A stretch of 34,886 nucleotides of DNA from Gemmatimonadota bacterium (GTDB lineage Bacteria; Gemmatimonadota; Gemmatimonadetes; Gemmatimonadales; GWC2-71-9). This document shows, one piece after another, positions 3,859 to 34,334 of this stretch. The stretch lies in the NCBI GenBank assembly GCA_016209985.1, contig JACQVB010000028.1, positions 1 through 34,886 on the forward strand, in the 5' to 3' direction. Each line of letters starts with the position of its first letter. Within the stretch, counting starts at the first letter, position 1. Both the position numbers and the translations under genes were made by a program. The notes under the pieces were generated by a model. The model did no database searches. It saw nothing but the letters and a program-made list of their open reading frames with translations, and was not told the DNA's origin.

Positions 3859-4713
3859 ATGACACGTGAAGCGTTCGTGGACCAGGTCGTGTGGATCACC
3901 GGAGCATCGTCGGGCATTGGCCGGTCCCTCGCGGTCGCATTCCGTCACGCCGGCGCCCGGCTGATACTGTCCGCCAGGCGCCCGGATGCGCTCGAGGAGG
4001 TCAAACGCGCCTGCGCCAACCACCCGGACGTTCACATCCTGCCGTTGGACCTCTCCCGGCTCGAGACGCTGCCCGCGAAGACCACCGAAGCGTTGGCGAG
4101 CTACGGCAGCATCGACTACATGGTCCACAACGCGGCCATCGCGATGAGGGACCGCGTCGTGGATACCAGCCTGGGCATCGATCAGCGGGTCATGGCCGTC
4201 AACTACTTCGGGCCGGTCGCCCTCACCAAGGCCCTGCTTCCCTCGATGCTGGCGCGCCGCTCCGGGCGCTTCGTGGTGATCAGCAGCCTCTCCGGGAAGT
4301 ACGGAGCGCCGCAGATGTCGGCCTACGCCGCGTCCAAACACGCCTTGCACGGCTTCTTCGAATCGCTTCGTGCCGAGGTCCATCCCGACAACATCCGCGT
4401 GACCATCGTAGTACCGGGCTTCATCCGCACTTCGATTCTGCAAAGCGCGGTGACCGGCGCCGGGGGGAGCTACGCCAGGAACCTTGCCATACACGAGCGC
4501 GGCATGGAGGCCGACGAATGTGCCCGCCGGATCCTCAAGGTGGTCGCCCGAGGAAAGGAAGAAGCCCTGGTAGGAGGTCCCGAGATCTACACGGTGCACC
4601 TGCAACGGCTGTTCCCCTCCCTGCTGACGCGCCTGGTGAGACTCCACCCGATGCGGCTCCGTGACCGTCTGTTTCGCTTCTTGTCACTCGGGACCAAAGA
4701 GGCAGACCGCTGA
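3859..4713 (+). CDS. Short-chain dehydrogenase/reductase, DHRS7-like
   Basis: Classical SDR of 284 residues that would use NAD(P)H to reduce a ketone or oxidise an alcohol. The Rossmann motif TGASSGIG is at residues 14-21, the structural HNAAI motif follows, and the catalytic Ser is in VISSLSGKYG. The YxxxK pair is Y156/K160 in SAYAASKHAL. The C-terminal ~60 residues are basic and amphipathic (LVRLHPMRLRDRLFRFL), as in membrane-associated DHRS7-type SDRs acting on lipids. Mammalian DHRS7B has been linked to acyl/alkyl-DHAP reduction, but substrate transfer from it is speculative. The gene lies 6 nt after the zinc-ribbon gene and meets the radical SAM gene tail to tail with a 5-bp gap. That places it physically with the lipid block, although no 11-bp box was seen upstream. 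Confidence 0.9.
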   Translation: MTREAFVDQVVWITGASSGIGRSLAVAFRHAGARLILSARRPDALEEVKRACANHPDVHILPLDLSRLETLPAKTTEALASYGSIDYMVHNAAIAMRDRVVDTSLGIDQRVMAVNYFGPVALTKALLPSMLARRSGRFVVISSLSGKYGAPQMSAYAASKHALHGFFESLRAEVHPDNIRVTIVVPGFIRTSILQSAVTGAGGSYARNLAIHERGMEADECARRILKVVARGKEEALVGGPEIYTVHLQRLFPSLLTRLVRLHPMRLRDRLFRFLSLGTKEADR

Positions 4714-4718
4714 TCGCC

Positions 4719-6164
4719 TCAACCTGCATGCATCACCGGTAAGGCATGCGACGCGCGGGCGCGGCGCTGCTGCAGGGCATCGGCCACTTCCGCACGGTTT
4801 CTCCTGCTCACCTGGTACACTTTCTGCCGGGCGTGATCCCGCTCGAAAAGTGATACCTGCAGGAAGATGTAGGAGACCAGAATCGACCGGATGAACCGCA
4901 TCCAGCCCCTGCCCCTGGCGACGTAGGTCGACACCAGCCGCCACCACCGGAGCGCGATACTGCGCCACGAATAGAAGCTCCGGTTGAGTCGCTCATAGGC
5001 ATCGAACACGTCACCCGGCGCGACATGGCGTGGGGTGAAGACCAGGTGATCGCCCTCGTAATGCGACACATCGCGATCGAAGATCCGGCCTTCCCTCTCG
5101 ACTTCCTGGTGAAACGGGGTGCCGGGAATCGGAATGGAAATCGAGAGGAGAATCGCACTGGGATCGACTTCCTCGATCCGCTGCGGCAGGGTCTGGTAGT
5201 ACTCGGGCGTGTCCTCGTCCAGGGCAATCATCATGCCGGTAAACGACATGATCCCTCGCTCGCGAAGCTTGGTGAATTGCTCCCGATACTCCTCGACTTT
5301 GTTTTGCCGCTTCTGGACCGCGCGCAGGCTCGGCTGGTTGAGTGACTCCAGGCCGATGAAGGCCATGGCCCCATGCGCCTGGTGCAACAGGTCCACGAAT
5401 TCGTCGTCCTTCAAACAATTGAACGTGAACTGGAAGCCCACCGCCCAGAAGTCGAGCCTGGCGATTTCCCGCAGCAGCTCCTTCGCGTACGTCATGTCAC
5501 CCGCGAAGTTGTTGTCGTAGAACATCGCCATCTTCCGCTTGTGGAACGGGAGGCCCGCGGTCGCCGTCAGGTCGCGAATCACCTGCTCGATGGGCCGGCA
5601 CCGATGCGGCGTGGTGCGGATGTTGAGCTGGCAGTAGGTGCAGCGGAAGGGACAGCCACGGGTGGCTTCCAGCACCATCGGGGCCGTGAAAACCGGCTCG
5701 GCCAGGTCGTAGCGCGGGGTGCCGACCAGCTCCAGTGAGGGGGCGAACGGCGCCTGATACAGCTTCTTCGCCTTGCCGGTCACCAGATCTTCAATCACCC
5801 GCGCCCATATAGGCTCGGCCTCGCCCACCACCACCACATCGAAATGGGGGAGCACTTGGTGCGGCGCGGTGGAGGGATACCGGCCCCCGGCAATGACCGT
5901 CTTTCCCAACGCCCGGAACCGCGCCGCCACGCGATAGGCGTGCGGCGCGCAAAAATCCATGAAGCTGAGCGCGATGAAATCGGCGTCGGTGTCATAGTCG
6001 ATCGGCCGGACCATTTCGTGCAAGACCTCGACGTCCACCAGGTCCGGGGTGAGGCCAGCCAACAGCAGGCCGGAGAGCGGCGGCGCCGGGCAGCGCGCGA
6101 AGTACGGCTGCTCGTCTCCCAGGTTCTGGAAGAGCACGATGATCTGGAGCTTGGGTCTAGGCAT
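4719..6164 (-). CDS. B12-binding-domain radical SAM protein, HpnP-like architecture
   Basis: Protein of 481 residues. Residues ~1-130 form a Rossmann-like cobalamin-binding region (ALSFMDFCAPHAY, then VIAGGRYPSTAPHQVLPHFD and VVVGEAE). The radical SAM core follows, with the 4Fe-4S ligands C171, C175 and C178 in RGCPFRCTYCQ. The order of elements, the phrase FYDNNFAGD, and a basic C-terminal region resembling DUF4070 recall lipid-modifying enzymes such as the hopanoid C-2 methylase HpnP. I do not see a DxHxxG motif, which is common in this subclass. Methylation or C-C bond chemistry on a lipid is the likely role, but the substrate is unknown. The ATG at 6164 overlaps the upstream SDR stop by 8 bp (CTCATGCCTAG), so the two genes are translationally coupled. 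Confidence 0.88.
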   Translation of the reverse strand: MPRPKLQIIVLFQNLGDEQPYFARCPAPPLSGLLLAGLTPDLVDVEVLHEMVRPIDYDTDADFIALSFMDFCAPHAYRVAARFRALGKTVIAGGRYPSTAPHQVLPHFDVVVVGEAEPIWARVIEDLVTGKAKKLYQAPFAPSLELVGTPRYDLAEPVFTAPMVLEATRGCPFRCTYCQLNIRTTPHRCRPIEQVIRDLTATAGLPFHKRKMAMFYDNNFAGDMTYAKELLREIARLDFWAVGFQFTFNCLKDDEFVDLLHQAHGAMAFIGLESLNQPSLRAVQKRQNKVEEYREQFTKLRERGIMSFTGMMIALDEDTPEYYQTLPQRIEEVDPSAILLSISIPIPGTPFHQEVEREGRIFDRDVSHYEGDHLVFTPRHVAPGDVFDAYERLNRSFYSWRSIALRWWRLVSTYVARGRGWMRFIRSILVSYIFLQVSLFERDHARQKVYQVSRRNRAEVADALQQRRARASHALPVMHAG

Positions 6165-6975
6165 GAGCCACCTGCTCGCTGGTGTGGAGATGCGCCGCGA
6201 TCGCGACCATGAACCGGCAGACCAGCCGTGGAACGACGCCGCGCAATGCGAACAAGGCGCGGCCCGACGCGGAGAGCACCACCTCTTCCTCTTCTTTTTC
6301 CATAGCCGTCACAATGCGCCGGGCCACGACATCCGCAGTCACATACCCGCCAGAGGGACGGCGAGCGCCGCCCAGCTTCTTTTCCCGGTCGAATAGCGGC
6401 GTACGGGTGTATCCCGGATACACGGTGGTCAGGCGGATCCCGGTGTCCCGAAGCTCCGCCCGCAGACTCTGCGCCAGCGCGGCAAGGGCGGCCTTGCTCG
6501 CACTGTAGGCCGCCAGGTAGGGCACGCCGTGCAATGCCGCAACCGATGCCACGTTGACGATCACGCCCGCGTGCCGGCGCCGCATGAGGGGAAGCACTTC
6601 CATGGTTGCCGAGAGCGCGCCGAAGAAATTCACGCCCATGACGCTGCGGAAATCCTCCACCGAAGCGCGTTCGGTCCCGCCATAGATGGAGACACCGGCA
6701 TTGTTGATCAGCGCGTCAACCCAACCCAGCAGCTCCACGGCGCGGGCCATCATCTGCTGCACCGCCGCGGCGTCGGTCAGGTCGCACGGTATCACGTAGA
6801 CCGCCGAAGGGCCGGGAAATCGATCGGTAAGGCCCAAGGCCACGTTCTCCAGCCGGCGGCGATCCCGGGCCACGAGAACCAAGCGCGCTCCTCTTTGCGC
6901 CAATTGCTCCGCCAGCGCCAAACCGATCCCCGACGATGCGCCGGTGAGGATGATCCGCCGGCCGTCAACTCGCAC
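6157..6975 (-). CDS. Short-chain dehydrogenase/reductase
   Basis: SDR of 272 residues. TGASSGIG is at residues 11-18, NNAGVSIYG follows the fourth strand, catalytic Ser is in NVASVAAL, and Y157/K161 are in AAYSASKAAL. The C-terminus is hydrophobic (FALRGVVPRLVCRFMVAIAAHL), suggesting membrane contact. The chosen start is GTG 6975, 4 nt after GGAGG, and it gives the usual short SDR N-terminus. ATG 7011 is in frame but has no ribosome binding site. It is the first gene of a two-gene operon with the radical SAM gene. It diverges from the UbiA operon across a region with paired CCGTCAA boxes, so the two operons are probably coregulated. Its substrate is unknown. The neighbours point to a lipid or isoprenoid alcohol or ketone. 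Confidence 0.9.
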   Translation of the reverse strand: MRVDGRRIILTGASSGIGLALAEQLAQRGARLVLVARDRRRLENVALGLTDRFPGPSAVYVIPCDLTDAAAVQQMMARAVELLGWVDALINNAGVSIYGGTERASVEDFRSVMGVNFFGALSATMEVLPLMRRRHAGVIVNVASVAALHGVPYLAAYSASKAALAALAQSLRAELRDTGIRLTTVYPGYTRTPLFDREKKLGGARRPSGGYVTADVVARRIVTAMEKEEEEVVLSASGRALFALRGVVPRLVCRFMVAIAAHLHTSEQVAHA

Positions 6976-7102
6976 GAGCCCTCCGCAACCGCCGCAGTAT
7001 CGCGCGCGCATGGATCATCGGACCCACCCACCGGAACAGCGTGCCTGGAAGCGATCCCATGAAAACCGTCTCCGTTCGAGTCGAGGGCAGTCTCGCCGGA
7101 GC

Positions 7103-7146
7103 CCGTCAAATGACCGTCAAGCCAGGACCTTGACGGTGCCTTGACG
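7103..7146. promoter_or_regulatory. Paired 11-bp-spaced CCGTCAA boxes, site 1 (divergent promoter)
   Basis: CCGTCAA at 7103-7109 and 7114-7120 (11 bp apart), then the inverse TTGACG at 7130-7135 and 7141-7146 (again 11 bp apart). This makes two direct pairs facing each other with 9 bp between them. The site lies between the divergent SDR and UbiA operons. Direct hexamers at an 11-bp period are typical of OmpR/PhoB-family response regulator dimers, so a regulator of that type is inferred. No such regulator gene is in the window. Confidence 0.68.
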
Positions 7147-7190
7147 ACCTCCTGCCAGATTCCCGCGCGTCTCACAGAGGGAGCGATGCC

Positions 7191-7649
7191 ATGCATCGGG
7201 AGAGCAATCCAGCAATCAGGAAGTGGTTGGGGCTGGCCACCTTGGCCGGCGGACTGCTGGTCGTTCTGTACTGGATTCTCTACCTCACCGGCGTCCTGAC
7301 CGGTAGCTGGAATGACGATCCAGCACGGAGTTTCGAAGGGGCCTTTCCGCTGGCCGACACGCTGCTCGCGGTCGTCCTGTTCTCTGCCAGCCGCGCCTTG
7401 TTCACGGGACGGCCTTCGGGACCGTTCTTGCTGGTCTGGGCCGCGGCGATGACGCTCTACCTGGGACTGCTCGACCTGCTCTTCTACTGGCAGGTCGGGC
7501 GATATACCCCGCTCGGCGCGATGGGATTGATCCAACTCCTGATCAATGCGTTGTGCATTGGCGGTGGAGCCACGGGACTCAGATTCGGCTGGCGTCTCGG
7601 GGACCTTCAAACCGTCGTTCGCCATCAACCCAAGAGGCTGGCAGCATGA
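7191..7649 (+). CDS. Small four-helix membrane protein of unknown function
   Basis: A 152-residue protein with four hydrophobic segments (approximately residues 12-36, 51-70, 80-103 and 108-132) and a short basic cytoplasmic-looking tail. No family recognised. ATG 7191 follows GAGGGAG at about 8 nt. Its stop overlaps the start of the UbiA gene (ATGA, 4 bp), so it opens a tightly coupled four-gene operon 45 bp downstream of the box cluster at 7103-7146. It may be a partner or chaperone of the prenyltransferase or of lipid handling in the inner membrane, which is inferred from position only. Confidence 0.8.
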   Translation: MHRESNPAIRKWLGLATLAGGLLVVLYWILYLTGVLTGSWNDDPARSFEGAFPLADTLLAVVLFSASRALFTGRPSGPFLLVWAAAMTLYLGLLDLLFYWQVGRYTPLGAMGLIQLLINALCIGGGATGLRFGWRLGDLQTVVRHQPKRLAA

Positions 7650-8629
7650 GCGCCGTCGCTCCCATTGCGGCTCCCACCCCGGTCGCGACCGCGCGGTTTG
7701 CCCGGGCCTACGTCGTCACGATGCGTCCGTACCTGCTGTTCGTGTCGGGCATCACCGGTCTTGCCGGAGTTTCCCTCGGTCCGGACATCGGGTTGGCGAA
7801 GACCCTCATTCTCGCTCTGGCGTTTTTTCTGTCGTATGGGTTCGGGCAGGCGCTGACCGACTGTTTTCAGCTCGACACCGACGCGCTCTCCTCGCCTTAC
7901 CGCCCAATGGTCCAGGGGGCCATCCGGCGGCGCGACGTTCTGATCGTCAGTCTGACGGGGCTCGCCTTCTGCGGCACGGTGGTGGTGGCGTTCTCGCGGG
8001 CCAACCTTTTCCTGGCAGCGCTCACGGTGATCGGACTGGCGACCTACACCCCATTCAAACGTCGCTGGTGGGGTGGGCCTATCTATAACGCCTGGATCGT
8101 GGCGCTGCTCGTGCCCATGGGCTACCTGGCGGCCGCGGGGACACTGGACCTGCAAGCTGTGGACCGACTCACCTGGTGGAAGATCGTTGGAACCATTCTC
8201 ACGACATTCTGGGCCTATGCCAACTTCGTCCTGTCGGGATACTTCAAGGATGTCTCGGCGGACCGCACGACCGGATACCACACTTTGCCGGTACGGTTCG
8301 GCTGGCGGTGGTCGGCGGCGGTCAGTCACGCATTCGCGGCGCTCAGTGTGGTGAGTTGCACGTGGACCATCGCGCTGGCCGACTCCTGGACCGCATTGCC
8401 GTTCCTCGGCGCTGGAATCTTTGCCACGGCACTCGGGCAGATCCGCCTTCAGGCAGTGCGCCGGGAACGGGAAGCGCATCGCGCCATTGCACCCGTCGTG
8501 CACGGGTTCGTCCTTCTGGAGAGCGCCATCGCCGCGGCGTTCAGACCGGAGTGGACGCTGATCCTGGTTGCTTTCTACACGGTCTTCTGCCTGGTGATGG
8601 AGCACCGTCCATCCGAGGCGCAGATCTGA
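7646..8629 (+). CDS. UbiA superfamily prenyltransferase
   Basis: Integral membrane protein of 327 residues with about 8-9 TM segments. UbiA enzymes transfer a polyprenyl group from its diphosphate to an acceptor. The first Asp-rich motif is TDCFQLDTDALSSPYRP, which aligns with the NDxxDxxxDAxxxPYRP of the chlorophyll synthase/DGGGP synthase group, except that the first Asn is Thr and the third motif residue Asp is Gln. The second motif is KDVSADRTTGYHTLPVRFG, with DxxxD intact. The start ATG 7646 overlaps the upstream stop (ATGA). A longer frame from 7553 lies inside the upstream gene and is rejected. The stop overlaps the lipid kinase start by 1 nt (TGATG). The acceptor is unknown. The neighbours suggest a glycerol or other lipid head rather than chlorophyll. 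Confidence 0.87.
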   Translation: MSAVAPIAAPTPVATARFARAYVVTMRPYLLFVSGITGLAGVSLGPDIGLAKTLILALAFFLSYGFGQALTDCFQLDTDALSSPYRPMVQGAIRRRDVLIVSLTGLAFCGTVVVAFSRANLFLAALTVIGLATYTPFKRRWWGGPIYNAWIVALLVPMGYLAAAGTLDLQAVDRLTWWKIVGTILTTFWAYANFVLSGYFKDVSADRTTGYHTLPVRFGWRWSAAVSHAFAALSVVSCTWTIALADSWTALPFLGAGIFATALGQIRLQAVRREREAHRAIAPVVHGFVLLESAIAAAFRPEWTLILVAFYTVFCLVMEHRPSEAQI

Positions 8630-9558
8630 TGCTGGTCCTCTTGAATCCGCGCGCCGGCGGTGGCGCCGCATCCACCCGGTTCAACTCCATCGCGTCCCAC
8701 CTGAGCGACCTGATCGGACCATATGCGGTGCGCTCCTGCGGAGGTCCGGATGCCCTGCTTCGAGAGATAGCAGAGGCGCTGGCCGCGGGTGAGCGATCGT
8801 TTGTCGCGGCGGGTGGGGACGGTACGGTAAATCACGTGGTCAACAGTCTGATGAATGTGACCGCACCCGCCCTTCGTGCTACGGTCAAGCTGGGCGCTAT
8901 CGGGTTGGGCTCCAGCAATGATTTTCACAAACCGATTCAGCAGGATCACCGGTGGGCCGGCCTGCCGTACCAGCTGGGGTTTTCATCCGCGACGCCGCAC
9001 GACGTCGGCGTGGCCAGCTACGAGAGTCCGGACGGGTGCATCCAGCGGCGACATTGGTTGATCAACGCTAGTGCGGGAGTCACGGCAGAGGGGAACCTGC
9101 TCTTCAATCAACCGGATGCCATCCTGCGGCGCTTCAGGCGACGCTCGTCCGGTCTGGCAATGGCGTACGCTGCCGTCCGGGCGATCCTCCGGCATCGACC
9201 CCGCTTCATGACGATCACCACAGACGATGGACCTTCGCTCCAGCTCCCGGTCACCAATCTGAGCATCGTCAAGAATCCACATTTCACGGGATCGCTGCGC
9301 TATCCCACGCCTCACGAGCCCGACAGTGGCCGGTTCTTCGTCCATCTGCTCGAGGGAGCCCGGCTCTGCCGGCGGATGCGTGCGCTGGGTGGTCTGGCTC
9401 GCGGGCGATTTCACGGACCGGGTATCCACACCTGGCCGGCTCGCCGGGTCTCCGTAATGACCGAAGAGCCATTCCCGCTGGAGACCGACGGCGAGATCAT
9501 GATGGCCAGAAGCGCGTCCTTCACGCTCATCCCGCGGGCGCTGCAGGTGTGCCAATGA
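8629..9558 (+). CDS. Diacylglycerol/sphingosine kinase-like lipid kinase (DagK/YegS family)
   Basis: Protein of 309 residues. It begins with the family's NPRAGGG motif (residues 6-12) and has the ATP-binding GGDGT at 62-66 followed by VNHVVNSL. It then has LGSSNDFHKP, equivalent to the GTxNDFAR element. The C-terminal beta-rich domain ends with PFPLETDGE, matching the family's conserved xQxDGE element. The expected reaction is ATP-dependent phosphorylation of a lipid hydroxyl at the inner leaflet. ATG 8629 shares one base with the UbiA stop, and the gene overlaps the next one by 4 bp. The operon position suggests that it acts on the UbiA product or its lipid acceptor, which is inference. Confidence 0.9.
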   Translation: MLVLLNPRAGGGAASTRFNSIASHLSDLIGPYAVRSCGGPDALLREIAEALAAGERSFVAAGGDGTVNHVVNSLMNVTAPALRATVKLGAIGLGSSNDFHKPIQQDHRWAGLPYQLGFSSATPHDVGVASYESPDGCIQRRHWLINASAGVTAEGNLLFNQPDAILRRFRRRSSGLAMAYAAVRAILRHRPRFMTITTDDGPSLQLPVTNLSIVKNPHFTGSLRYPTPHEPDSGRFFVHLLEGARLCRRMRALGGLARGRFHGPGIHTWPARRVSVMTEEPFPLETDGEIMMARSASFTLIPRALQVCQ

Positions 9559-10718
9559 CTGCGGCGATGTTGCCCCGTGAGGTGGCGTTGATCGAGCGTC
9601 TGGCGGCCGGCTTTGCCCGTTCGGGCCTCCAGCTGAACGGCCGTCATCAGAGCGATGCGGAGCTGATTTCGCTGCCCGGCGGAGCCGTGCTCGCCCTCAC
9701 CACCGACTCGATCGTGGAGGAGATCGAGACCGGACTGTACCAGGATCCGTTCCTGATCGGCTGGATGACGGTGACGGTAAACGCGAGTGATCTGGCGGCA
9801 GTGGGGGCGGCTCCCCTCGGAATTCTGCTGAATCAGACGCTTACGCATGATACGGACGCGGATTTCCTTGCACGGATGCAGCAGGGCGTGGCCGCGGCCT
9901 GCGCCGCCTGCACGCTGCCGGTGCTCGGTGGAGACACCAACGTGGGTTCACGTCTTCAAGTGGGAGCGTCCGCCGTCGGCCTGATCCAGGAGGGCCGCCC
10001 GGTCACGCGGCTCGGCGCGCGGCCCGGCGACCACCTGTTCGCCTCCGGCCGGCTGGGATCGGGGGGCGGCTACGCCCTGGCCCGGATGGAACCGCTAGGG
10101 ATGCTCTGCCCGAGTCGCGCGGCGGGTCCCGGAGGACGCGTCAGTGAGCCGTACCCCGAGTTACCAGCCTCCCCAACTCGCCAACTGCAGCGGACGACGG
10201 GACCCACCGCGCCACTTGTGCAGAGGTTTCCTGGAGGCGTTTCTGCCGTTCCCTTTCGGCCCCAGGCACGCTTGCGCGAAGGTCAGATTCTTCGGTGTTA
10301 CGCCAGCGCCTGCATGGACACGAGCGACGGTGTGATCCCTACGCTGGACGAGCTGGGTCGTCTGAACCAGGTGGGTTTCACGCTCGACCCTGACGCCGCG
10401 TTCGATCCGGCGGCCTTGGCACTCGTCTGCGAGGCGAACCTGCCGGCTTGGGCTTTGCTTGCCGGGCCGCACGGCGAATTCGAGCTGCTGTTCACCGTTC
10501 CGCCGGATCGGCTGGGTGGCTTCGAGCAGGCCGCCGCGGCCGCACACTGGACGCCGGTGCCGCTGGGGCGCGTGCTGCAGGACCCCGGTCTCCTGCTGCG
10601 AGATCAGGGCAGATGGAAGTGGATCGATACTCGCCGAGTGAGAGACCTCTTTAGCGACGTGGGAGGCGACGTCACCCGCTACCTCGCCGGGTTGTTGGCA
10701 ATCAGTAATACCAATTGA
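9555..10718 (+). CDS. ThiL/PurM-like ATP-binding enzyme with internal insertion
   Basis: Protein of 387 residues of the AIR synthase-related superfamily (ThiL, PurM, SelD, HypE). The N-terminal half has TTDSIVEE, VNASDLAAVGAAP and LGGDTNVGS, like the metal- and ATP-binding loops of thiamine-monophosphate kinase. The second half has the DTSDG element (MDTSDGVIPTLDEL). Between them, at roughly residues 180-225, sits a Pro/Arg-rich low-complexity stretch absent from ThiL, encoded by about 10100-10250. ThiL is usually ~320 residues. ATG 9555 overlaps the kinase stop (ATGA). A true ThiL would be expected near thiamine genes, and none are here. A kinase or phosphate-transfer role in the lipid pathway is therefore a better guess. 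Its 3' end overlaps the convergent barrel gene by 17 bp. Confidence 0.8.
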   Translation: MTAAMLPREVALIERLAAGFARSGLQLNGRHQSDAELISLPGGAVLALTTDSIVEEIETGLYQDPFLIGWMTVTVNASDLAAVGAAPLGILLNQTLTHDTDADFLARMQQGVAAACAACTLPVLGGDTNVGSRLQVGASAVGLIQEGRPVTRLGARPGDHLFASGRLGSGGGYALARMEPLGMLCPSRAAGPGGRVSEPYPELPASPTRQLQRTTGPTAPLVQRFPGGVSAVPFRPQARLREGQILRCYASACMDTSDGVIPTLDELGRLNQVGFTLDPDAAFDPAALALVCEANLPAWALLAGPHGEFELLFTVPPDRLGGFEQAAAAAHWTPVPLGRVLQDPGLLLRDQGRWKWIDTRRVRDLFSDVGGDVTRYLAGLLAISNTN

Positions 10719-11868
10719 GAGCCGCAGAGATGTTGGTGTCCCACCGGGGAGCGAGCAAGGGCTCCCTGGTGCTGTTTCCGGTAAAGACGCGCCCTTCGAG
10801 GCCCAAGGACAGCGATGACGAGAGCCGACGGCTGGCCTGAGCCGATACCATCACGTTCCCGGTCACACGATCAACGATCACTCCACTGGCAACCTGCCCA
10901 TCCTGATACAGCAGCCTGGTTCCCAGAAACAGATCATGCTCCAGCGAGGTCGTGGCTAGCGGCCCGCGGGTATCGTGCAGGTATTCCGCGAAGAAGCTCA
11001 GGTAATCAGCCACCACGTATTCGATCCCGGCCGCCAGGGCCTGATGCGCGCCCAACTTCCGACGGTCATTCACCAGCTCCAGTTTCCACAACACCGGCCC
11101 GCGGGTCCACTGGAGATCGAGGCTCGCGCGACTGCCAAGCTCATAGCGAGGGATCAGAACAGCGGCCCCGGCGGCGGCGGTCTCGAGGGAGAAGACCGGA
11201 TCCCGCTCGGTACCGCGGAAGTAACCGGCGGCGATGTCCAACGGTCCCCGGGAGATCGCCCACCGGGCCGCCCAGTCCACATGTCTCTGCGCCTGCGGTG
11301 AGTCGAAGGTCGAGGTCGCGGCGGTGGGGTTCGGTGACCACAACCTTCCCGCTCGACCGCGAAAGGGTCTGGTTCGAAAGCCGGGGAGAAGGTAGACGTC
11401 GAACGTGCCCCACCATCCTTGGAGTGCCGCGTTCACCATCGGCTGGCCGAGCTTGATGTCGCCTTCGGCACCGGCGCCGGTGACGCGCTGGTTGATCACG
11501 TCGACCACGTGGGCAGCTTCGGTCACGCCCCAGGTGACTTCCCCCACGCCGGCGCGCACCGCAACATGCTCGCTTCCGAAGCGCCAGCTCAGATCGTCGA
11601 TGTCGAACAGCGTCTGGGATCCATCGGCGGGGTTGACCTCCAGCGACGCAGCCAGGGACACCTGTTGCGCGCCGTGCTGCCATTGGAGTTTCCAGCGAGC
11701 GCTCCCAAAAACCGTCGGTTCGTGCGCACCACCGGGACCGCCGGCGGGTCTCTGCGCAAAGACGCGTTCCCGCACCCGGAGCTGACCGGCCCACTGCGCG
11801 ACGGCCGGCGCATGAAACGTGGCCAGCAGCAGCGGTAGCAGACTCAGCGTGCACCAAAGCCGGGACAT
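10702..11868 (-). CDS. Outer-membrane beta-barrel protein
   Basis: Protein of 388 residues with a Sec signal peptide (residues 1-25, LLPLLLATFHAPAVAQ), then alternating polar and hydrophobic strands rich in Trp and Tyr. It ends NISAALNWYY, an aromatic C-terminus expected of BAM-inserted barrels. It resembles the DUF1302-type proteins found beside RND/MMPL and LolA-like genes, but I cannot confirm the family. ATG 11868 is 3 nt after the stop of the LolA-like gene, so it is the last gene of the RND operon. It probably receives or presents the lipid carried by the other two proteins, which is inference. The 3' end overlaps the convergent ThiL-like gene. Confidence 0.83.
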   Translation of the reverse strand: MSRLWCTLSLLPLLLATFHAPAVAQWAGQLRVRERVFAQRPAGGPGGAHEPTVFGSARWKLQWQHGAQQVSLAASLEVNPADGSQTLFDIDDLSWRFGSEHVAVRAGVGEVTWGVTEAAHVVDVINQRVTGAGAEGDIKLGQPMVNAALQGWWGTFDVYLLPGFRTRPFRGRAGRLWSPNPTAATSTFDSPQAQRHVDWAARWAISRGPLDIAAGYFRGTERDPVFSLETAAAGAAVLIPRYELGSRASLDLQWTRGPVLWKLELVNDRRKLGAHQALAAGIEYVVADYLSFFAEYLHDTRGPLATTSLEHDLFLGTRLLYQDGQVASGVIVDRVTGNVMVSAQASRRLSSSLSLGLEGRVFTGNSTREPLLAPRWDTNISAALNWYY

Positions 11869-11871
11869 GCG

Positions 11872-12672
11872 CTATTGGCTGCGGGCCAGGACCGCCGGAT
11901 CGAAGTCACGCTCCGCCAGACCCATCCTGAACCGGTAATCGCGCCACTCGATGACCGTGGTCGCGCCGGTTCGGTGGTTCACCATCCGCAGCTCGTCAGG
12001 GCGCCAGTACCGCTCGCCGTAGAGCCGGTAGCCCACGAATCGCAACGTCTTCAGGGGCTGGTCATTCCGATCGAAAAAGTCGATCCGCAACAGCCGGTGA
12101 TGATCCCGGTCGATCCATACGACCTGCCGCCCATACTGCGAAGCTGGATCGAGCGCGAGGCGCTCCACCCGCCAGGCGGCCACGCCTTCCAGGCTGTCCT
12201 CGCCGATCCATCGGTGGCGATAGCGACCGACGTCCGGCAGCGCGATGTCTTCATAGGAGAATTCCGTCCCCATGAATGAGCCGGAGCGACTATGTGAGGC
12301 GATCCGTTTCACCCGATTCATGGCGGGGAGATAGAGCCACTGCTCGTCTTCCGCTCCCGGACGCGTGACCGTCAATAGTGCGGTCCCCCGCACATCCCGA
12401 GGCTCCTCGAACACCACCAGGGTCCGCTCGCCTCCACCCCTCGGCTCGATACTGCGCCATCGCACCGACCGCCGGCGCTCCTCGTCTCGACCATTACCCA
12501 CGATGATCGTGAGCCGGGCGGTAGCGTCGCCGTAGCCGGTCAGTTGGCGATACGCATCTGCCGCGAGCTGTCTGCCCCGCTCATCATCCGGGCTCTGACC
12601 GGCACTGACGGTCACCACGCACGCCAGCATGAGCCCGGCAACCATTGCGCTCCTCATCCAGTTGTATGTCAT
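11872..12672 (-). CDS. LolA-like periplasmic outer-membrane lipoprotein-sorting protein
   Basis: Exported protein of 266 residues with a signal peptide at residues ~1-26 (MRSAMVAGLMLACVVTVSAG). The body has the fold signature of the 'outer membrane lipoprotein-sorting protein' family: WLYLPAMNRVKRI, SFMGTEFSYEDI, and repeated beta strands such as RIDFFDRNDQPLKTL. Family members are half-open barrels that shuttle hydrophobic cargo and are commonly encoded next to MMPL/RND permeases. ATG 12672 overlaps the RND stop by 4 bp (ATGA), so coupling to the transporter is strong. It is the likely periplasmic lipid carrier between the RND pump and the barrel protein. Confidence 0.88.
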   Translation of the reverse strand: MTYNWMRSAMVAGLMLACVVTVSAGQSPDDERGRQLAADAYRQLTGYGDATARLTIIVGNGRDEERRRSVRWRSIEPRGGGERTLVVFEEPRDVRGTALLTVTRPGAEDEQWLYLPAMNRVKRIASHSRSGSFMGTEFSYEDIALPDVGRYRHRWIGEDSLEGVAAWRVERLALDPASQYGRQVVWIDRDHHRLLRIDFFDRNDQPLKTLRFVGYRLYGERYWRPDELRMVNHRTGATTVIEWRDYRFRMGLAERDFDPAVLARSQ

Positions 12673-14993
12673 GCGACTTTCTCCGCGACAAGTGGAGCCG
12701 TGAGAGCCGGCCGCCGGCGCCACGCCAGTGCAAGCAAGGCCGGCAACAGAAACAGATCGGCTGCCAGTGCAGCCACCGCGCTGATCACGGTCATCGCTCC
12801 GATGAGGAAGAGCACCTGGAAGTGGGAGATCAACAGCACGGCGAACCCCGCGATGACCACCACTGAGGTCAGCACCATCGCCCGACCGGCTGCCTTGAGG
12901 CTGGCCTCCAAAGCCGCCTCGGGTGTCGCTGCCGATCTCGCTACTTCCAGAAACCGGCTCAAGAGATGAATGGTGTTGTCCACCGCCATTCCATACGCGA
13001 TGGAGAAGACTAGGATGGTGGACGGCTTGAGATCGAATCCACCGATTCTCATGGCGCCCAGCAGCACCAGCAGGGGAAACACATTCGGCACCACCGCGAG
13101 GAGTCCGACCCGGACGGACCGGAACATCTGCATCATCACCACGCTGATCAGAACGATGTCCAGCAGGACCGATGGCCCGAGGTTGGCCAGCAGCCGCGCG
13201 GTAAAGCTTTGAATCATGACCGGGGTGCCCGTGACCGTTGCCTCGACGCCGGACAGGGAATGGCTCTTGACGTAGCTCTCCATTCGCTCGAGGAACGGCT
13301 GCAGAACCACCGACCCGGTATCCCGAATCGCCACGATCACCTGCGCTTCGCCCTGGTCCTGCCGGTAGAGAGCGTGGACCACCGCGGGATCGCTCATCTC
13401 GGCCATCAGCACGAGCTCCGCCGCTTCCTGTTTCGTCGCCGGCAGTTCGTGGGTGGACGAGCTGCCGATTACCGACGATCGGATCGGCGTGAGCAGATCC
13501 GGCAGGGCAACCGTCTTCTGAACGATCGGTTCCCGCTCGGCGACCCGCCGGAACTCCTGCATCCAGGCAAGCACGGCGGGGTCGTGGAGCGGTCGCTCGC
13601 CGGTCTGGCGCAGGTGCACTGACAACTGGAAGAGCGCGAACCCGTGCCGCTCGATCCAGCGGATGTCGCGCATCACCGGGGTTTCTTTCTTGATGTCGTC
13701 AATCAGCAGGGTGTTGATGCGGAGGCCGCTGCCCAGGGCGATGGCGACCAGGCTTGCCGCCCCGAAGAGTCCGAACGTTTGCCAGCGTCCCATGCGTACT
13801 CGGCGGGCGGCCGGTCCGATGACCTTCCCCAGCCAGACTGCTTCCAGGCCGCGGTCATCGAAGGTGCGACGGCGAGTCAGGCTCAACAGGGCGGGTAGCA
13901 GTGTCATGCTGAACCCGTAGGTGAGCATGATGGCCACCGCGGTGTAGACCCCGAAGTCCACCACGATCCCGATGCGGGTGGTAGCCAGCCCACCGAAGCC
14001 GATGGCGCTGGTAAGCGAGGTGTAGAAACAGGGCACGGCGAGAGAAGAAAACGTCGTCGCCACGGCGCTCGGGATGCTGGCGGTTCCGCGCAATCGTCCC
14101 CGGAACTCCGCGACGAGGTGCACGTTGTCGCACATCCCGATGACCAGGACGACCACCGGGATGAAGCTGGTCAGCAGGCTGATGGGTTTGCCCAGGAATC
14201 CCATGAGGCCGAGCGTGCAGAGGTAGGCCGGCGCGATGGAGGAAATCATCAGCAGGACCTGGGTGGGATTGCGCAAGAAGTACAGCAGCACCAGCGCCGC
14301 CACCATCACGGCGGCGCCAGCCAGAAACCGCAGGTCCGCGGCCAGGAGCTTGGGCGCGCGCGATCGGGCCACCGGAAGGCCACCCAGCACCAGTTCGGCC
14401 TCATTGATTCCGAGGCCGGCGATGCCGCGAGTGAGTGACTCCTCCACTGCCCGACGACCGGCATCGTGGTTCTGGCTTGGTTCGATGTAGCCGTGGATAG
14501 CGAACACGGTTTGCGAGCTGTCCCACAGAAAGCCTTGGAGCAAGGGATCGTGACGGTGGCGCGTCAGGGCGGCTGCCAGGTCGCGGTCATCCTTCTCCGG
14601 ATCCATCAACAGTTGCAGCGATAGGTCATCGGCTCGGTCGCCGCTTGCCTGCTCGGCTATCTGCGCATTTCCGATCCAGCGGATGTCGTGCAGGCCTGCC
14701 CGCTCGAACAGCGCCGCCGCCCGCTCCATGTCCCGGTACATCGCTTGTCCCGGCGACCGCTGGTCTTTCCAGAAGAGGGTGAATTGAGCGTCCTCGTTCG
14801 GAAAGGAGCGCCGATACCGCTCGAACGCTTCTCGTTCAGGGCCTGAAGGCAGAAAGAATTGTTCGACGCCGTAATCGACCCGCGTGTGACGCGCGCCGAT
14901 GGCGGCGACGCCCACGAGCACCACGCTGGCCAGCAGCACCCGCCATGGGTGCGCGACGATGCGATGGAAGTAGATGGCGATCCGGTCGTTCAT
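12669..14993 (-). CDS. RND/MMPL family lipid transporter (HpnN-like topology)
   Basis: Inner-membrane protein of 774 residues with two repeats, each having one TM helix, a large periplasmic loop and five TM helices. The core motifs of the two halves are GMCDNVHLVAEF and AYGMAVDNTIHLL, with the proton-relay-type Asp in each. MMPL/HpnN-type members move lipids such as hopanoids or mycolates. ATG 14993 gives MNDRIAIYFHRIVAHPWRV, a standard N-terminus. The open frame runs on to 15206, but that extension is Arg/Pro-rich and overlaps the small-protein gene, so it is rejected. No good ribosome binding site precedes ATG 14993. The gene sits in an operon with the LolA-like and barrel genes. A boxed site (15017-15034) lies 24 bp upstream. 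Confidence 0.9.
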   Translation of the reverse strand: MNDRIAIYFHRIVAHPWRVLLASVVLVGVAAIGARHTRVDYGVEQFFLPSGPEREAFERYRRSFPNEDAQFTLFWKDQRSPGQAMYRDMERAAALFERAGLHDIRWIGNAQIAEQASGDRADDLSLQLLMDPEKDDRDLAAALTRHRHDPLLQGFLWDSSQTVFAIHGYIEPSQNHDAGRRAVEESLTRGIAGLGINEAELVLGGLPVARSRAPKLLAADLRFLAGAAVMVAALVLLYFLRNPTQVLLMISSIAPAYLCTLGLMGFLGKPISLLTSFIPVVVLVIGMCDNVHLVAEFRGRLRGTASIPSAVATTFSSLAVPCFYTSLTSAIGFGGLATTRIGIVVDFGVYTAVAIMLTYGFSMTLLPALLSLTRRRTFDDRGLEAVWLGKVIGPAARRVRMGRWQTFGLFGAASLVAIALGSGLRINTLLIDDIKKETPVMRDIRWIERHGFALFQLSVHLRQTGERPLHDPAVLAWMQEFRRVAEREPIVQKTVALPDLLTPIRSSVIGSSSTHELPATKQEAAELVLMAEMSDPAVVHALYRQDQGEAQVIVAIRDTGSVVLQPFLERMESYVKSHSLSGVEATVTGTPVMIQSFTARLLANLGPSVLLDIVLISVVMMQMFRSVRVGLLAVVPNVFPLLVLLGAMRIGGFDLKPSTILVFSIAYGMAVDNTIHLLSRFLEVARSAATPEAALEASLKAAGRAMVLTSVVVIAGFAVLLISHFQVLFLIGAMTVISAVAALAADLFLLPALLALAWRRRPALTAPLVAEKVA

Positions 14994-15016
14994 ATGACGG
15001 TGAGCTTGGCCGCGCA

Positions 15017-15034
15017 CCGTCAAGCCGCCGTCAA
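15017..15034. promoter_or_regulatory. 11-bp-spaced CCGTCAA pair, site 2
   Basis: CCGTCAA at 15017-15023 and 15028-15034, 11 bp apart, 24 bp upstream of the RND start and overlapping the last codons of the small-protein gene. A weaker opposite-strand ATGACGG lies at 14994-15000. It could be an internal operator of the RND operon. Part of its conservation may be coding. Confidence 0.5.
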
Positions 15035-15220
15035 ACGTGGGGCGGCGTGTCTCGGCGAACGGACGCGCAGCCCTCCCTGCCGCTCCAGACGGGCGAGGGC
15101 GCTGCCCACCCGCGCCAGGATCGCGATGAACGTGATCAGCAACAACCAACCTGTGAGATGAACGAGCACCCGCTGCGTGAAACGCTGCAGGCGGTGGGTG
15201 CTGCAACTCGTCGACCTCAT
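15020..15220 (-). CDS. Small single-TM membrane protein upstream of RND operon
   Basis: A 66-residue protein with a basic N-terminus (MRSTSCSTHRLQRFTQR), one strong TM segment at about 18-39 (VLVHLTGWLLLITFIAILARVG) and a basic tail. ATG 15220 follows a near-perfect ribosome binding site, AGGAGGAGCGG. The frame stays open upstream to 15280, but that start has no such support. It ends 26 bp before the RND start, so it is probably the first gene of that operon. Possible roles are an accessory subunit of the RND transporter or a leader peptide. It matches no family I recognise. The TM segment and strong ribosome binding site favour a real gene. Confidence 0.6.
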   Translation of the reverse strand: MRSTSCSTHRLQRFTQRVLVHLTGWLLLITFIAILARVGSALARLERQGGLRVRSPRHAAPRLTAA

Positions 15221-15273
15221 CCGCTCCTCCTCGTGGACATTGCGATGGATCTCGCGAGGATGGTGCGTGCGTG

Positions 15274-15313
15274 GTGTCAAGCAGCCGTCAAACGTCTTGA
15301 CGCCTGCTTGCCG
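15274..15313. promoter_or_regulatory. Paired 11-bp-spaced boxes, site 3 (RND operon promoter)
   Basis: GTGTCAA at 15274-15280 and CCGTCAA at 15285-15291 (11 bp apart), followed by the inverse TTGACG at 15297-15302 and TTGCCG at 15308-15313 (11 bp apart). This is the same two-pair face-to-face layout as at 7103-7146, with a 5-bp instead of 9-bp centre. It lies 54 bp upstream of the small-protein start. Read on the minus strand, the proximal half-site is TTGACA, a consensus -35 hexamer, so the boxes may overlap the promoter. Confidence 0.68.
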
Positions 15314-17071: not shown

Positions 17072-18976
17072 TCAAGGCCGATCTACCGCCTCAACTATCC
17101 TTTGCCGCTGCCCCGCCGTGATCATGTCCCGCTCCACCACCTCCCTCACGATCCGCGCCACGAACGCGTAGCCCCGTGGCTCGGCCACTAACCACCGCCG
17201 CCACTCCAGCTCGTCCAGCGCCGCGTTGAGAGCCTGGCCCTCCAGCCCCGTCGCTCGCCCGATCAACTGCGCTTCGACCCGGTCGCCCAGTACCGCGGTT
17301 GCGGTCAGAGCGGCCTGCGCCTCGCGGCTCAAGCGCCGAAAGCCAACCCGTATCGCCGCGACCATCGTATCGGGAAGCTCGCCGGGGAGAGTCTGATCGA
17401 GAGTCCGCAACGGCTGGGGCCAGGCGCCACTGGTCGCGTTGAGGTCGAGTCCCGCCGCGACCGCGTGGCAGATCTCCACCGCCAGTAGCGGAAGTCCAGC
17501 GGAGTCGGCCCCGATTCTCCGAGCCAGCCGGTCGGCCTCCTCGGCCGAATACGATGGCAAGGCCCAGTGTGCCAGGGCGCGAAGCGAGTCGGCCCCGAGA
17601 GCCGAAAGCGACACGCTGATACCCGGAATGTCTCGCCCGATCCGGGTGCGAAGCTCCCCCAGCTTGGAAGCGGACGGCTCGGAACTGGTCCCGAAAAGAA
17701 TCAGAATCGGCGCGCCCGCGAGATCGCGTGCGATCGCTTCGAGAACCTCGTAGGATGGCTCGTCAACCCAGTGCGCATCGTCGATAATCATCAATACCGG
17801 CCGCTCGACGCTCGTCGCCCGCAGGATTTCACTAAGGGCGGGGCCGGGTTTCCAGGGGTCCTCATCGCGTGCGGCCTTGGGAAAACGTTCCGCCCACTCC
17901 GTGATCTGGCCGGTGAGTGCGGCCAGCGCGGACGGATGAGTACCGGCCACCCCCGGCGCATCGAGCAACCCGCCACGCGCCAGGCCGAGCACCGCGCTCA
18001 ACGGGTGATCCAGATCGGCCGCGACCGCGCGCATCGAGAGACAGGTTCCCCCTTCCAGTGCCACTCGCGCGATCACCTCTTCGGCAAGTCTGGTCTTCCC
18101 CGCCCCGGCATCGGCCTCGATCACGACCATTCCGAGTCGCCCGGAGGCGGCCTCTCGCCACTGTTCCAGGATTGCCGACAATTCTCGCTCCCGACCCACC
18201 AACGGAGCGCGCTTCCAATCGACGCCTCCGCCGTCACTGAGCGCCTCTTGTGGCAGGTGCCATTCCCGGGCGGCCCGCAGGCGATTCGCCAGGGCCTCGG
18301 TTTCCGGATCGATGTGCCCATCCCGTTCCTTCTTTGCGCTGGCCGAGAAGTGAGCGAACAGATCCAACGCCGCCGACCGGTCGCCGGCCAGTGCCAAACC
18401 GCGCATGAGGGTGCGCACCGCGCGATCGGACAGGGGCTCGAGCTTCAGGGCGCGACGCGCCGGCTCCTCGGCTCCGGCAGTATCGCCCGCCGCCAACCGC
18501 TGCTCGGCGCAGCGCACCAATGCGTCGATCGCTCGCATCCGCCACTGCAGCCGCTCGGCGGTGAGCCAGTCCTCGAAGGGGGATGCGTCCGGCACGCTGA
18601 ACCCTTCGAGAAACTCACCGGCCACTAGTCGTGCGGCACCCGCCCAATCTCCCGCCTTCGCCAGGTGATCGAAGCGGTCGGTGTCCAGCTCTATCGTGCC
18701 ATCCACCAACTGGATCTGATCCCCCTCCGCCTTTACCTGTGACTCCCCGGCTAACCGGCGCAGGACCCGAACTGCCTCGCGCAACGAATGCCGGGCGGCC
18801 GACTCGTCCTTTTCACTCCACAGCAGGCCGATCGCATGGTCGCGGGTGCAACGGTGAGTCGAGGCGCGGGCAAGGTACAGCAGCAGCGCGAGATTCTTTT
18901 TCCACAGCAGCTCGGGCGGCGCCGGCGCCTGATCCACCGATACCTCCACCGGGCCCAGCGTGCGGCAGTAGATCAT
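17072..18976 (-). CDS. BTAD-domain transcriptional activator with AAA ATPase module
   Basis: A 634-residue regulator. Residues ~3-95 form a winged-helix DNA-binding domain of the SARP type (LLLYLARAS, IGLLWSEKDESAARHSLREAV). Residues ~98-240 form the helical BTAD domain. Residues ~258-600 form an AAA_16-type STAND ATPase with Walker A ADAGAGKT at 288-295 and Walker B-like VLMIIDDAHW. No C-terminal TPR or LuxR domain follows, so the protein is short for a STAND regulator. ATG 18976 overlaps the kinase stop by 4 bp (ATGA), and the six residues before it in the open frame are dismissed. Coupling implies that the kinase may phosphorylate or signal to this activator. Targets are unknown. Confidence 0.88.
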   Translation of the reverse strand: MIYCRTLGPVEVSVDQAPAPPELLWKKNLALLLYLARASTHRCTRDHAIGLLWSEKDESAARHSLREAVRVLRRLAGESQVKAEGDQIQLVDGTIELDTDRFDHLAKAGDWAGAARLVAGEFLEGFSVPDASPFEDWLTAERLQWRMRAIDALVRCAEQRLAAGDTAGAEEPARRALKLEPLSDRAVRTLMRGLALAGDRSAALDLFAHFSASAKKERDGHIDPETEALANRLRAAREWHLPQEALSDGGGVDWKRAPLVGRERELSAILEQWREAASGRLGMVVIEADAGAGKTRLAEEVIARVALEGGTCLSMRAVAADLDHPLSAVLGLARGGLLDAPGVAGTHPSALAALTGQITEWAERFPKAARDEDPWKPGPALSEILRATSVERPVLMIIDDAHWVDEPSYEVLEAIARDLAGAPILILFGTSSEPSASKLGELRTRIGRDIPGISVSLSALGADSLRALAHWALPSYSAEEADRLARRIGADSAGLPLLAVEICHAVAAGLDLNATSGAWPQPLRTLDQTLPGELPDTMVAAIRVGFRRLSREAQAALTATAVLGDRVEAQLIGRATGLEGQALNAALDELEWRRWLVAEPRGYAFVARIVREVVERDMITAGQRQRIVEAVDRP

Positions 18977-21753: not shown

Positions 21754-21802
21754 GTGATGGCGGTCCACGCAAACGTGCGACTTCTGCGGACCTTCGGCAA
21801 GC

Positions 21803-26649: not shown

Positions 26650-27591
26650 ATGGGCGTAAGTGTCGCACCAGCAATCAGTCACGGCGACGCGAAGCATCCC
26701 GCTTGGGCTTCTGCCCTCTCGCATCCCGGCTGGCTCAAATCGACTCAGCGGTATGGCCAGCGGCGCGCTCTCTTGGGCGCCGCGGTGGTCGCGCTCGAGC
26801 GAGCGATACAAGCCAAGGACCCCGACACCATGGGCCATTCGGCTCGGGTGCGACGCCTCGCGGTCGCCCTGGCGCGCCGGTTGGCCGTTGGTGAGGCCCT
26901 GCTCCAAGAGATCGCCATGGGCGCCGAACTGCACGACATCGGAAAAATCGGCGTGCCGGATGCGCTACTGCACAAGGCGGGATCCCTCACGCCGGACGAG
27001 CGCCGCCGAATTCTCGAGCACACGGTGATTGGCGAGCAGATCTTGGCACCGCTGCTGCGCGACCAGCCGGTGATCCTGGCGGTGGTTCGTTGGCACCATG
27101 AACGGGTGGACGGGAGCGGGTACCCGGACGCCCTGCGGGGAGAGCAAATACCTCTGGCGGCTCGGATCGTGGCCGTCGCGGACGCGTTTGACGCCATGAC
27201 CAGCGAACGACCATACCGACCGGCCCGGTCGAGGCCCGAAGCGGTCCGGGAGCTGCTCCGCTGCAGCGGGAGCCACTTCGATCCGGTGTGCGTCCGCGCG
27301 CTACTCGAGGTCTTTCGCGAGCTCGCGGAGAACCGGCCTCGCGCGGCGCCTGACCAGCGGTTCGAGATGGGTGCGGCATCGCGGTGGCCCGGGTCGCGAC
27401 CGCGGAGGTGGAGGGGTAGTGGCGGAGAACGCGGTCCGCCTCCCTTGGAGTCGCGGATTCATGAAAGGGAAGGCCCGCCTACTCCGGGATCACCGGCAGC
27501 AGGAGGTGCGATGCTCGAACGGCCGAGTGATAGACCAGGTTCCGGACAACCAGCCAGGAGGTCTCGTCGTAATTGTTGCCGCCGGTGTTGA
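26650..27591 (+). CDS. HD-GYP domain cyclic-di-GMP phosphodiesterase
   Basis: A 313-residue protein. HD-GYP enzymes hydrolyse c-di-GMP. The metal and catalytic residues are visible: H63, the HD pair H95-D96 in ELHDIGKIG with K99, H124, H149-H150, and the GYP motif in HHERVDGSGYP (157-159). RIVAVADAFDAMTS follows. No sensor or receiver domain precedes it, only a ~50-residue leader. ATG 26650 follows AGGAG at 4 nt. The open frame from 26560 overlaps the promoter and is rejected. The last ~85 residues are Arg/Pro/Gly-rich and disordered. The final 113 bp overlap the convergent S15 gene, so the tail may result from loss of an earlier stop. Confidence 0.9.
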   Translation: MGVSVAPAISHGDAKHPAWASALSHPGWLKSTQRYGQRRALLGAAVVALERAIQAKDPDTMGHSARVRRLAVALARRLAVGEALLQEIAMGAELHDIGKIGVPDALLHKAGSLTPDERRRILEHTVIGEQILAPLLRDQPVILAVVRWHHERVDGSGYPDALRGEQIPLAARIVAVADAFDAMTSERPYRPARSRPEAVRELLRCSGSHFDPVCVRALLEVFRELAENRPRAAPDQRFEMGAASRWPGSRPRRWRGSGGERGPPPLESRIHEREGPPTPGSPAAGGAMLERPSDRPGSGQPARRSRRNCCRRC

Positions 27592-29368: not shown

Positions 29369-29370
29369 CG

Positions 29371-29400
29371 CTGTCTCCTCTGCGCTCTCCGCGTTCTTGC
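29371..29400. repeat. Short purine-rich GCGGAGA/GCAGAGG repeat upstream of the S15 gene
   Basis: Read on the minus strand, the spacer between the BKACE and S15 genes contains AACGCGGAGAGCGCAGAGGA. This imperfect run of G(C/A)GGAGA-type units resembles dispersed intergenic repeats seen in several soil bacterial phyla. It supplies the AGGAGA ribosome binding site of the S15 gene. Confidence 0.4.
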
Positions 29401-29418
29401 CGCGAGATCCTCCACGCA

Positions 29419-30387: not shown

Positions 30388-30388
30388 G

Positions 30389-31351: not shown

Positions 31352-31370
31352 GGTTCGGTCGCGGCCTCGC

Positions 31371-34210: not shown

Positions 34211-34238
34211 CCCACAGCCTCCCTCCTGCCTCTCCTGC

Positions 34239-34256
34239 CCCTCAGGCCCGTGAGGG
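34239..34256. terminator. Short hairpin between the FN3-PPC gene and the aminotransferase
   Basis: CCCTCA at 34239-34244 pairs with TGAGGG at 34251-34256 around a 6-nt loop, about 80 bp past the FN3-PPC stop. The stem is only 6 bp and has no U-tract, so a terminator role is tentative. Confidence 0.3.
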
Positions 34257-34334
34257 CTTAGGGCACGAACACGGGCGTCAGTGGAACAGTCATGGTCCCG
34301 CTGCGGCAGCAGCGATCGTACGTCATGGGATTCA

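Follow-up and report, generated by a model that had tools for sequence, protein, structure and literature searches.

The bacterial ceramide/sphingolipid pathway, known from Caulobacter, Bacteroidetes and Porphyromonas, is one of the closest described counterparts of the locus considered here, a gene set at positions 3859 to 15313 of a 34,886-nucleotide contig from a Gemmatimonadota bacterium (GenBank assembly GCA_016209985.1, contig JACQVB010000028.1; the whole contig is called the window). The locus encodes a UbiA-family transferase, a DagK-like kinase and a ThiL-like kinase (the trio), a B12-binding radical SAM enzyme, and an MMPL transporter with a LolA-like carrier and a putative outer-membrane barrel. 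Judged from sequence comparison, there is an even chance that the locus combines a conserved module for lipid biosynthesis with an optional one for export, both controlled by a single dedicated operator. The ceramide pathway uses a serine palmitoyltransferase (SPT)-group oxoamine synthase, an acyl activation enzyme, a reductase and a sphingoid or ceramide kinase and yields an outer-membrane lipid (PMC11324152, PMC9045371); this locus and its relatives have candidate counterparts of these enzymes and, putatively, such a product. In contrast, the cluster described here adds the UbiA enzyme, the ThiL-like kinase and the B12-radical SAM enzyme, its UbiA operon contains no N-acyltransferase (ceramide synthase), and no SPT was detected in the window genome.

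Regarding the other members, the closest solved UbiA structure is the archaeal digeranylgeranylglyceryl phosphate (DGGGP) synthase 6m31, which acts on a phosphorylated lipid acceptor. However, this match reaches only 41.6 bits, the window UbiA has Thr and Gln for the Asn and Asp of NDxxD, and its operon contains no archaeal lipid genes. ThiL (thiamine-monophosphate kinase) resembles the ThiL-like protein in fold family, in most acidic positions and, putatively, in monophosphate-to-diphosphate chemistry; the latter protein nevertheless scores 166.2 bits, below the thiL equivalog cut-off of 184.15, carries ESDAEL in place of the GDDAA-type motif, and has no adjoining thiamine genes. MMPL lipid exporters, such as mycobacterial MmpL, HpnN and the aryl-polyene exporters, likewise lie beside lipid genes, and some MMPL lipid-export systems have a LolA-like carrier, whereas the window MMPL is common to two different lipid loci, and the putative barrel beside it belongs to no known family. 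The SgaAB sphingolipid cluster also makes an oxoamine synthase-derived long-chain base, but it consists of a polyketide synthase and oxoamine synthase pair without the trio (PMC12134224). No description of this gene combination was found in the literature searched, many subscription papers being outside its reach, in agreement with a preliminary description of this DNA that knew of no pathway with such a set.

Gene Organization of the Locus

The window is the whole contig (C264) of a draft genome of 4.64 Mb in 289 contigs (95% complete), whose nearest relatives in a scan of species genomes are Gemmatimonadota. The domains, ATGA overlaps and repeated boxes named in the preliminary description were all confirmed, by Pfam and NCBIfam models, by the sequence and by shuffled sequences, respectively. 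The features are listed below (SDR, short-chain dehydrogenase/reductase; TM, transmembrane; ORF, open reading frame).

3859..4713, plus strand: SDR1 (Pfam adh_short)
4719..6164, minus strand: B12-binding and radical SAM enzyme (Pfam)
6157..7011, minus strand: SDR2, ketoreductase-type (Pfam)
7103..7147, no strand assigned: divergent-promoter operator made up of GTCAA/TTGAC boxes at 11-bp spacing, in two tandem pairs placed face to face
7191..7649, plus strand: small 4-TM protein (no family match)
7646..8629, plus strand: UbiA-family transferase (Pfam UbiA, E=3.6e-24)
8629..9558, plus strand: DagK/sphingoid-kinase-like lipid kinase (DAGK_cat and YegS_C)
9549..10718, plus strand: ThiL-like ATP-dependent kinase of the PurM superfamily (AIRS; thiL model, score as above)
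10702..11868, minus strand: putative outer-membrane barrel, 388 aa, signal peptide (no family match)
about 11872..12672, minus strand: LolA-like periplasmic lipid carrier, signal peptide (LolA_like PF17131, E=5e-58)
12669..14993, minus strand: MMPL/RND transporter (Pfam MMPL)
15018..15034, no strand assigned: pair of operator boxes 25 bp ahead of the MMPL start
15020..15280, minus strand: small ORF with one TM segment (no family match)
15275..15313, no strand assigned: operator boxes ahead of the small 1-TM ORF

The genes are tightly packed: ATGA at 7646 joins the 4-TM and UbiA genes, TGATG at 8627-8631 joins the UbiA and DagK-like genes, and further overlaps occur between DagK and ThiL (10 nt), SDR2 and radical SAM (8 nt), and LolA and MMPL (ATGA). 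The UbiA and export operons converge, with stops at 10718 and 10702. The small 1-TM ORF likely begins at an ATG at about 15222, behind a strong ribosome-binding site.

Conservation of the Synthesis Genes

Scanning the UbiA protein against 84,980 species genomes yielded 18 loci, and sampling of two more phyla (Bacteroidota and Aminicenantes-type) gave 8 new loci, for a total of 27 including the window. The trio is present in these loci, which come from Gemmatimonadota, Eisenbacteria-type, Aminicenantes-type and Bacteroidota genomes, and its genes are adjacent wherever the contig is long enough, except in L040 and L103, where UbiA was matched only in part. The radical SAM enzyme, which often accompanies the trio, is the best-conserved member (50-74% identity); its gene is divergent and ahead of the trio in Gemmatimonadota and lies behind it in Eisenbacteria-type and three Bacteroidota loci. 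Within the window's family, 4 of 101 sampled genomes have this UbiA, and a close radical SAM orthologue occurs in three of the four and in no UbiA-less genome (Fisher p=2.4e-5); in the fourth, G036, the start of the locus lies at a contig end. SDR2 orthologues (49-61% identity) adjoin the radical SAM gene in L104, L030, L031, L035 and L039, SDR2 being common to G030 and the Eisenbacteria-type loci, and relatives of the 4-TM protein are found at most Gemmatimonadota loci and at one Aminicenantes-type locus. At L026:8580-9857, a single frame encodes a fusion of the 4-TM protein with an SDR, hinting at the working partner of the small protein. SDR1, which the preliminary description had counted in the pathway, has no orthologue beside the UbiA genes of the other loci compared and probably lies outside the conserved unit. 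These comparisons give good support to the view that the synthesis genes constitute one conserved unit, and the patchy distribution of the trio over phyla suggests horizontal transfer.

Predicted Synthesis Enzymes

The DagK-like kinase retains GGDG and DGE, both invariant in 11 sequences, and matches DgkB, YegS and SphK1. Most conserved acidic positions of ThiL are kept in the ThiL-like protein, whose closest solved relatives are the ThiL structures 5dd7 and 5cc8. The CxxxCxxC motif of the radical SAM enzyme (C171, C175, C178) is invariant in 10 relatives with 50-70% identity, and an N-terminal B12-type domain, predicted to bind cobalamin, is present according to Pfam and an AlphaFold model. 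This model resembles AprD4, MgmA, TsrM and CysS with moderate scores. As AprD4, a diol dehydratase, acts together with a reductase, the overlapping SDR2/radical SAM pair may deoxygenate or methylate its substrate, which is taken as a lead only. In NCBIfam searches, all members score below the equivalog cut-offs of the UbiA, ThiL, DGGGP synthase and named radical SAM models. Membership in the quinone-UbiA or ThiL families was rejected on these scores, as was EboC of the ebo cluster (31.6 bits against a cut-off of 250).

Alpha-Oxoamine Synthase and the Probable Sphingoid-Type Product

Of the 19 distinct loci outside Gemmatimonadota, 17 encode an alpha-oxoamine synthase of the serine-palmitoyltransferase superfamily within the gene run or close to it, which makes a sphingoid-type lipid the probable product. 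Eisenbacteria-type loci additionally carry a FadD-like acyl-CoA ligase in the same run. The closest solved relatives of these oxoamine synthases are the SPTs 3a2b and 8guh. In a phylogenetic tree they form two clades apart from 2-amino-3-ketobutyrate ligase (KBL), with weakly supported deepest forks, and in NCBIfam they score below the SPT equivalog cut-offs, the Bacteroidota type being nearer to BioF. In Gemmatimonadota, the oxoamine synthase is encoded elsewhere in the genome and not at the trio locus; relatives of the window organism encode SPT at a locus of its own, next to GNAT-like and epimerase-like genes, and SPT is present in 91 of the 101 family genomes.

The synthase, ligase, SDR reductase and sphingoid-type kinase found here can be likened to the core of bacterial sphingoid lipid synthesis (PMC11324152). 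In Porphyromonas (Bacteroidetes), a related SphK-like kinase phosphorylates dihydrosphingosine (PMC9045371). By sequence, SDR2 and the DAGK-type kinase are candidate counterparts of the 3-keto reductase and the sphingoid kinase. A plain prenylated or glycerol lipid had been proposed as the product; a sphingoid-type lipid appears to fit better, and the locus probably directs the synthesis of such a lipid, extended by a branch of UbiA and two kinases. A prenylated product may still be compatible with this assignment.

A Shared Operator

The synthesis and export operons share an operator that is conserved in other genomes, as its first mention had claimed for the window. GTCAA-N6-GTCAA or TTGAC-N6-TTGAC pairs are located at 7105, 7130, 15019 and 15276, that is, four in the window against 0.015 expected from shuffled sequences, and the longer form CGTCAA-N5-CGTCAA occurs exactly four times genome-wide, three of them inside the window. 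One exact box, on contig C205, has unrelated frames as neighbours and did not bear out its promise. One or both operator pairs are also present in L025-L028, L033, L104, L130 and L136. The exact pair occupies the radical SAM/4-TM (or equivalent) promoter in L025, L026, L027, L028, L033 and L104 and stands ahead of the UbiA run of L130 (Bacteroidota), and L029 has a pair with one mismatch. In G067, a radical SAM paralogue is preceded by the identical operator. This third operator-bearing locus (L150, contig C176) contains, besides the paralogue, genes for an HpnR-like B12 radical SAM enzyme, an oxoamine synthase, a GNAT protein, an alcohol dehydrogenase, a YegS-like protein, an MMPL transporter, a desaturase and a P450.

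Direct repeats at 11-bp spacing are typical of OmpR/PhoB-type regulators. Large histidine kinases with one or two response regulators adjoin six trio loci of other phyla (L103, L128, L130, L131, L132 and L135); HisKA, PDZ and Trans_reg_C domains were confirmed for L131, L103 and L128, with the PDZ domain in the L131 kinase. An OmpR/PhoB-type response regulator probably binds the 11-bp repeats. Control by the B12 light regulator CarH/LitR was rejected: no MerR protein with PF02607 was found, the sole PF02607 match in the genome being a 729-aa frame.

The Export Module

The MMPL, LolA-like and barrel proteins are predicted to export a lipid. The putative barrel is suggested by a signal peptide and by an all-beta AlphaFold model, built with only three homologues, that has a low mean predicted local distance difference test score (pLDDT) of 51; homologues adjoin LolA/MMPL genes in L025 and L136, whose LolA-like proteins are 56% and 47% identical, respectively, to that of the window. 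In L025, the ThiL and MMPL frames overlap and are followed by LolA and the barrel, so that the export genes are contiguous with the trio, and in the window the export operon is convergent with the trio operon and has the operator in common. Thus, the export genes are physically tied to the synthesis genes in two genomes with different gene orders.

The MMPL gene is also present in two family genomes without this UbiA, G056 and G074, which implies that lipid loci share the exporter as a module and that it is no fixed part of the trio pathway. In G074 the operator stands directly ahead of MMPL. In G056 the module lies behind the same operator among genes for a CDP-alcohol transferase, a CarS-like protein, a UbiA-type protein, phosphatidylserine decarboxylase (PSD) and a P450. 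The module-side run of this locus (L136/L149, contig C202) comprises PPDK-like, MMPL, CDP-alcohol transferase, CarS-like, UbiA-type, PSD, LolA, barrel, P450 and GNAT-like genes, and genes for an AMP-ligase, a class-III-type aminotransferase and an acyl carrier protein, with the same operator, are divergent from it.

Proposed Pathway and Alternative Explanations

In the proposed pathway, an acyl-CoA and an amino acid would be condensed to a 3-keto long-chain base, which an SDR would reduce. The DagK-like kinase would phosphorylate the primary hydroxyl of the long-chain base, the ThiL-like kinase would add a second phosphate to generate a lipid diphosphate, and UbiA would take this diphosphate as the donor. 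Since ThiL is one of the few kinases that convert a phosphate monoester to a diphosphate and UbiA enzymes consume diphosphates, serial kinases feeding UbiA would be the most economical reading. Alternatively, as the closest solved UbiA is a DGGGP synthase, UbiA may prenylate a phospho-lipid in the manner of that enzyme. The radical SAM enzyme and SDR would alter the chain or head group by methylation or deoxygenation, and the MMPL transporter, LolA-like carrier and barrel would carry the product to the outer membrane. In its boldest form, the pathway would create a new lipid class: a UbiA-fold enzyme whose metal motif has been rewired would transfer a pyrophosphorylated long-chain base, a non-isoprenoid donor, and MMPL-LolA-barrel would export the product under the same operator; we hold this version to be doubtful.

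Several observations weigh against the proposed pathway. The diphosphate that UbiA enzymes normally require is allylic, and a saturated base would not yield one; moreover, motif 1 of the UbiA proteins is TDCFQxDTD and not NDxxDxxxD in 12 of 12 aligned sequences, a change that could affect donor use; motif 2 (KDxxAD) is retained. Two trio loci, L134 and L135, lack an oxoamine synthase, the latter being truncated by its contig end. The main weakness of the sphingoid assignment for the window organism is the missing SPT: neither SPT nor the ceramide-locus GNAT protein was found in the 95% complete window genome (G000), and its sole oxoamine synthase groups with E. coli Kbl. Unlike it, the same-genus G034 has a ceramide-type SPT locus, and the missing SPT reflects either true loss or a gap in the assembly. 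No cognate regulator was identified in the window genome or in Gemmatimonadota, where the homology search matched only a generic kinase core. Finally, an MMPL orthologue was not found in five of the eight UbiA-bearing Gemmatimonadota genomes searched (G000, G030, G036, G055, G101, G102, G103 and G107), several of them incomplete drafts; single absences are weak evidence for this reason, the five jointly less so.

The alternative that fares best is isoprenoid-alcohol salvage, in which the kinases would rephosphorylate a prenol and UbiA would attach the prenyl group to an acceptor, with the oxoamine synthase supplying that acceptor or being incidental. Two kinases plus UbiA parallel the phytol kinase/phytyl-phosphate kinase logic of plants, UbiA relatives favour allylic prenyl diphosphates, and the trio does occur without the synthase, as in L134 and in the window genome, where the one such enzyme is KBL-type. 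Yet the known substrates of DAGK-fold kinases are diacylglycerol, sphingoid bases and ceramide, with no prenol among them, and 17 of 19 loci from other phyla have the oxoamine synthase linked; salvage is rather unlikely.

The preliminary description had joined synthesis and export in a single pathway and expected the UbiA and RND operons to co-occur in related genomes. The synthesis part of this claim stands, and the export part does so in part: both operons are found in the window and in L025 (G101), and a close MMPL orthologue is also present in G102 (L026), with no LolA or barrel adjoining, which makes three of the eight genomes. The two operons could instead be independent lipid modules placed side by side, the exporter serving whichever lipid locus hosts it, or an unrelated lipid. 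This partial co-occurrence, not significant in the family sample (Fisher p=0.12), and the two UbiA-less genomes with MMPL would agree with independence, but the joined operon of L025, the convergent neighbours sharing an operator in the window, and the same operator ahead of the export module in G056 and G074 make it unlikely. That ordinary quinone, ether-lipid or thiamine-linked genes drifted together is highly improbable, for although each family has well-known members, none of the proteins reaches the corresponding cut-offs and the linkage holds across phyla.

Other Genes in the Window

At 17072-21768, the frame of a BTAD/AAA transcriptional activator overlaps that of a 931-aa Ser/Thr protein kinase by 22 nt. 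A run at 27479-34387 contains genes for an S15-type peptidase, a BKACE protein, a 3-hydroxyacyl-CoA dehydrogenase, an amino-acid permease and a class-III aminotransferase, and is perhaps an amino-acid degradation cluster.

Conclusions

This locus suggests that several poorly studied phyla share a branch of bacterial outer-membrane lipid synthesis not described so far. It provides a specific example in which dedicated kinases may feed a UbiA enzyme, and a portable module of MMPL, LolA-like and barrel proteins, predicted to export lipid, with testable partners. The conserved operator, which here led to G056 and G067, would be usable to find further lipid loci.

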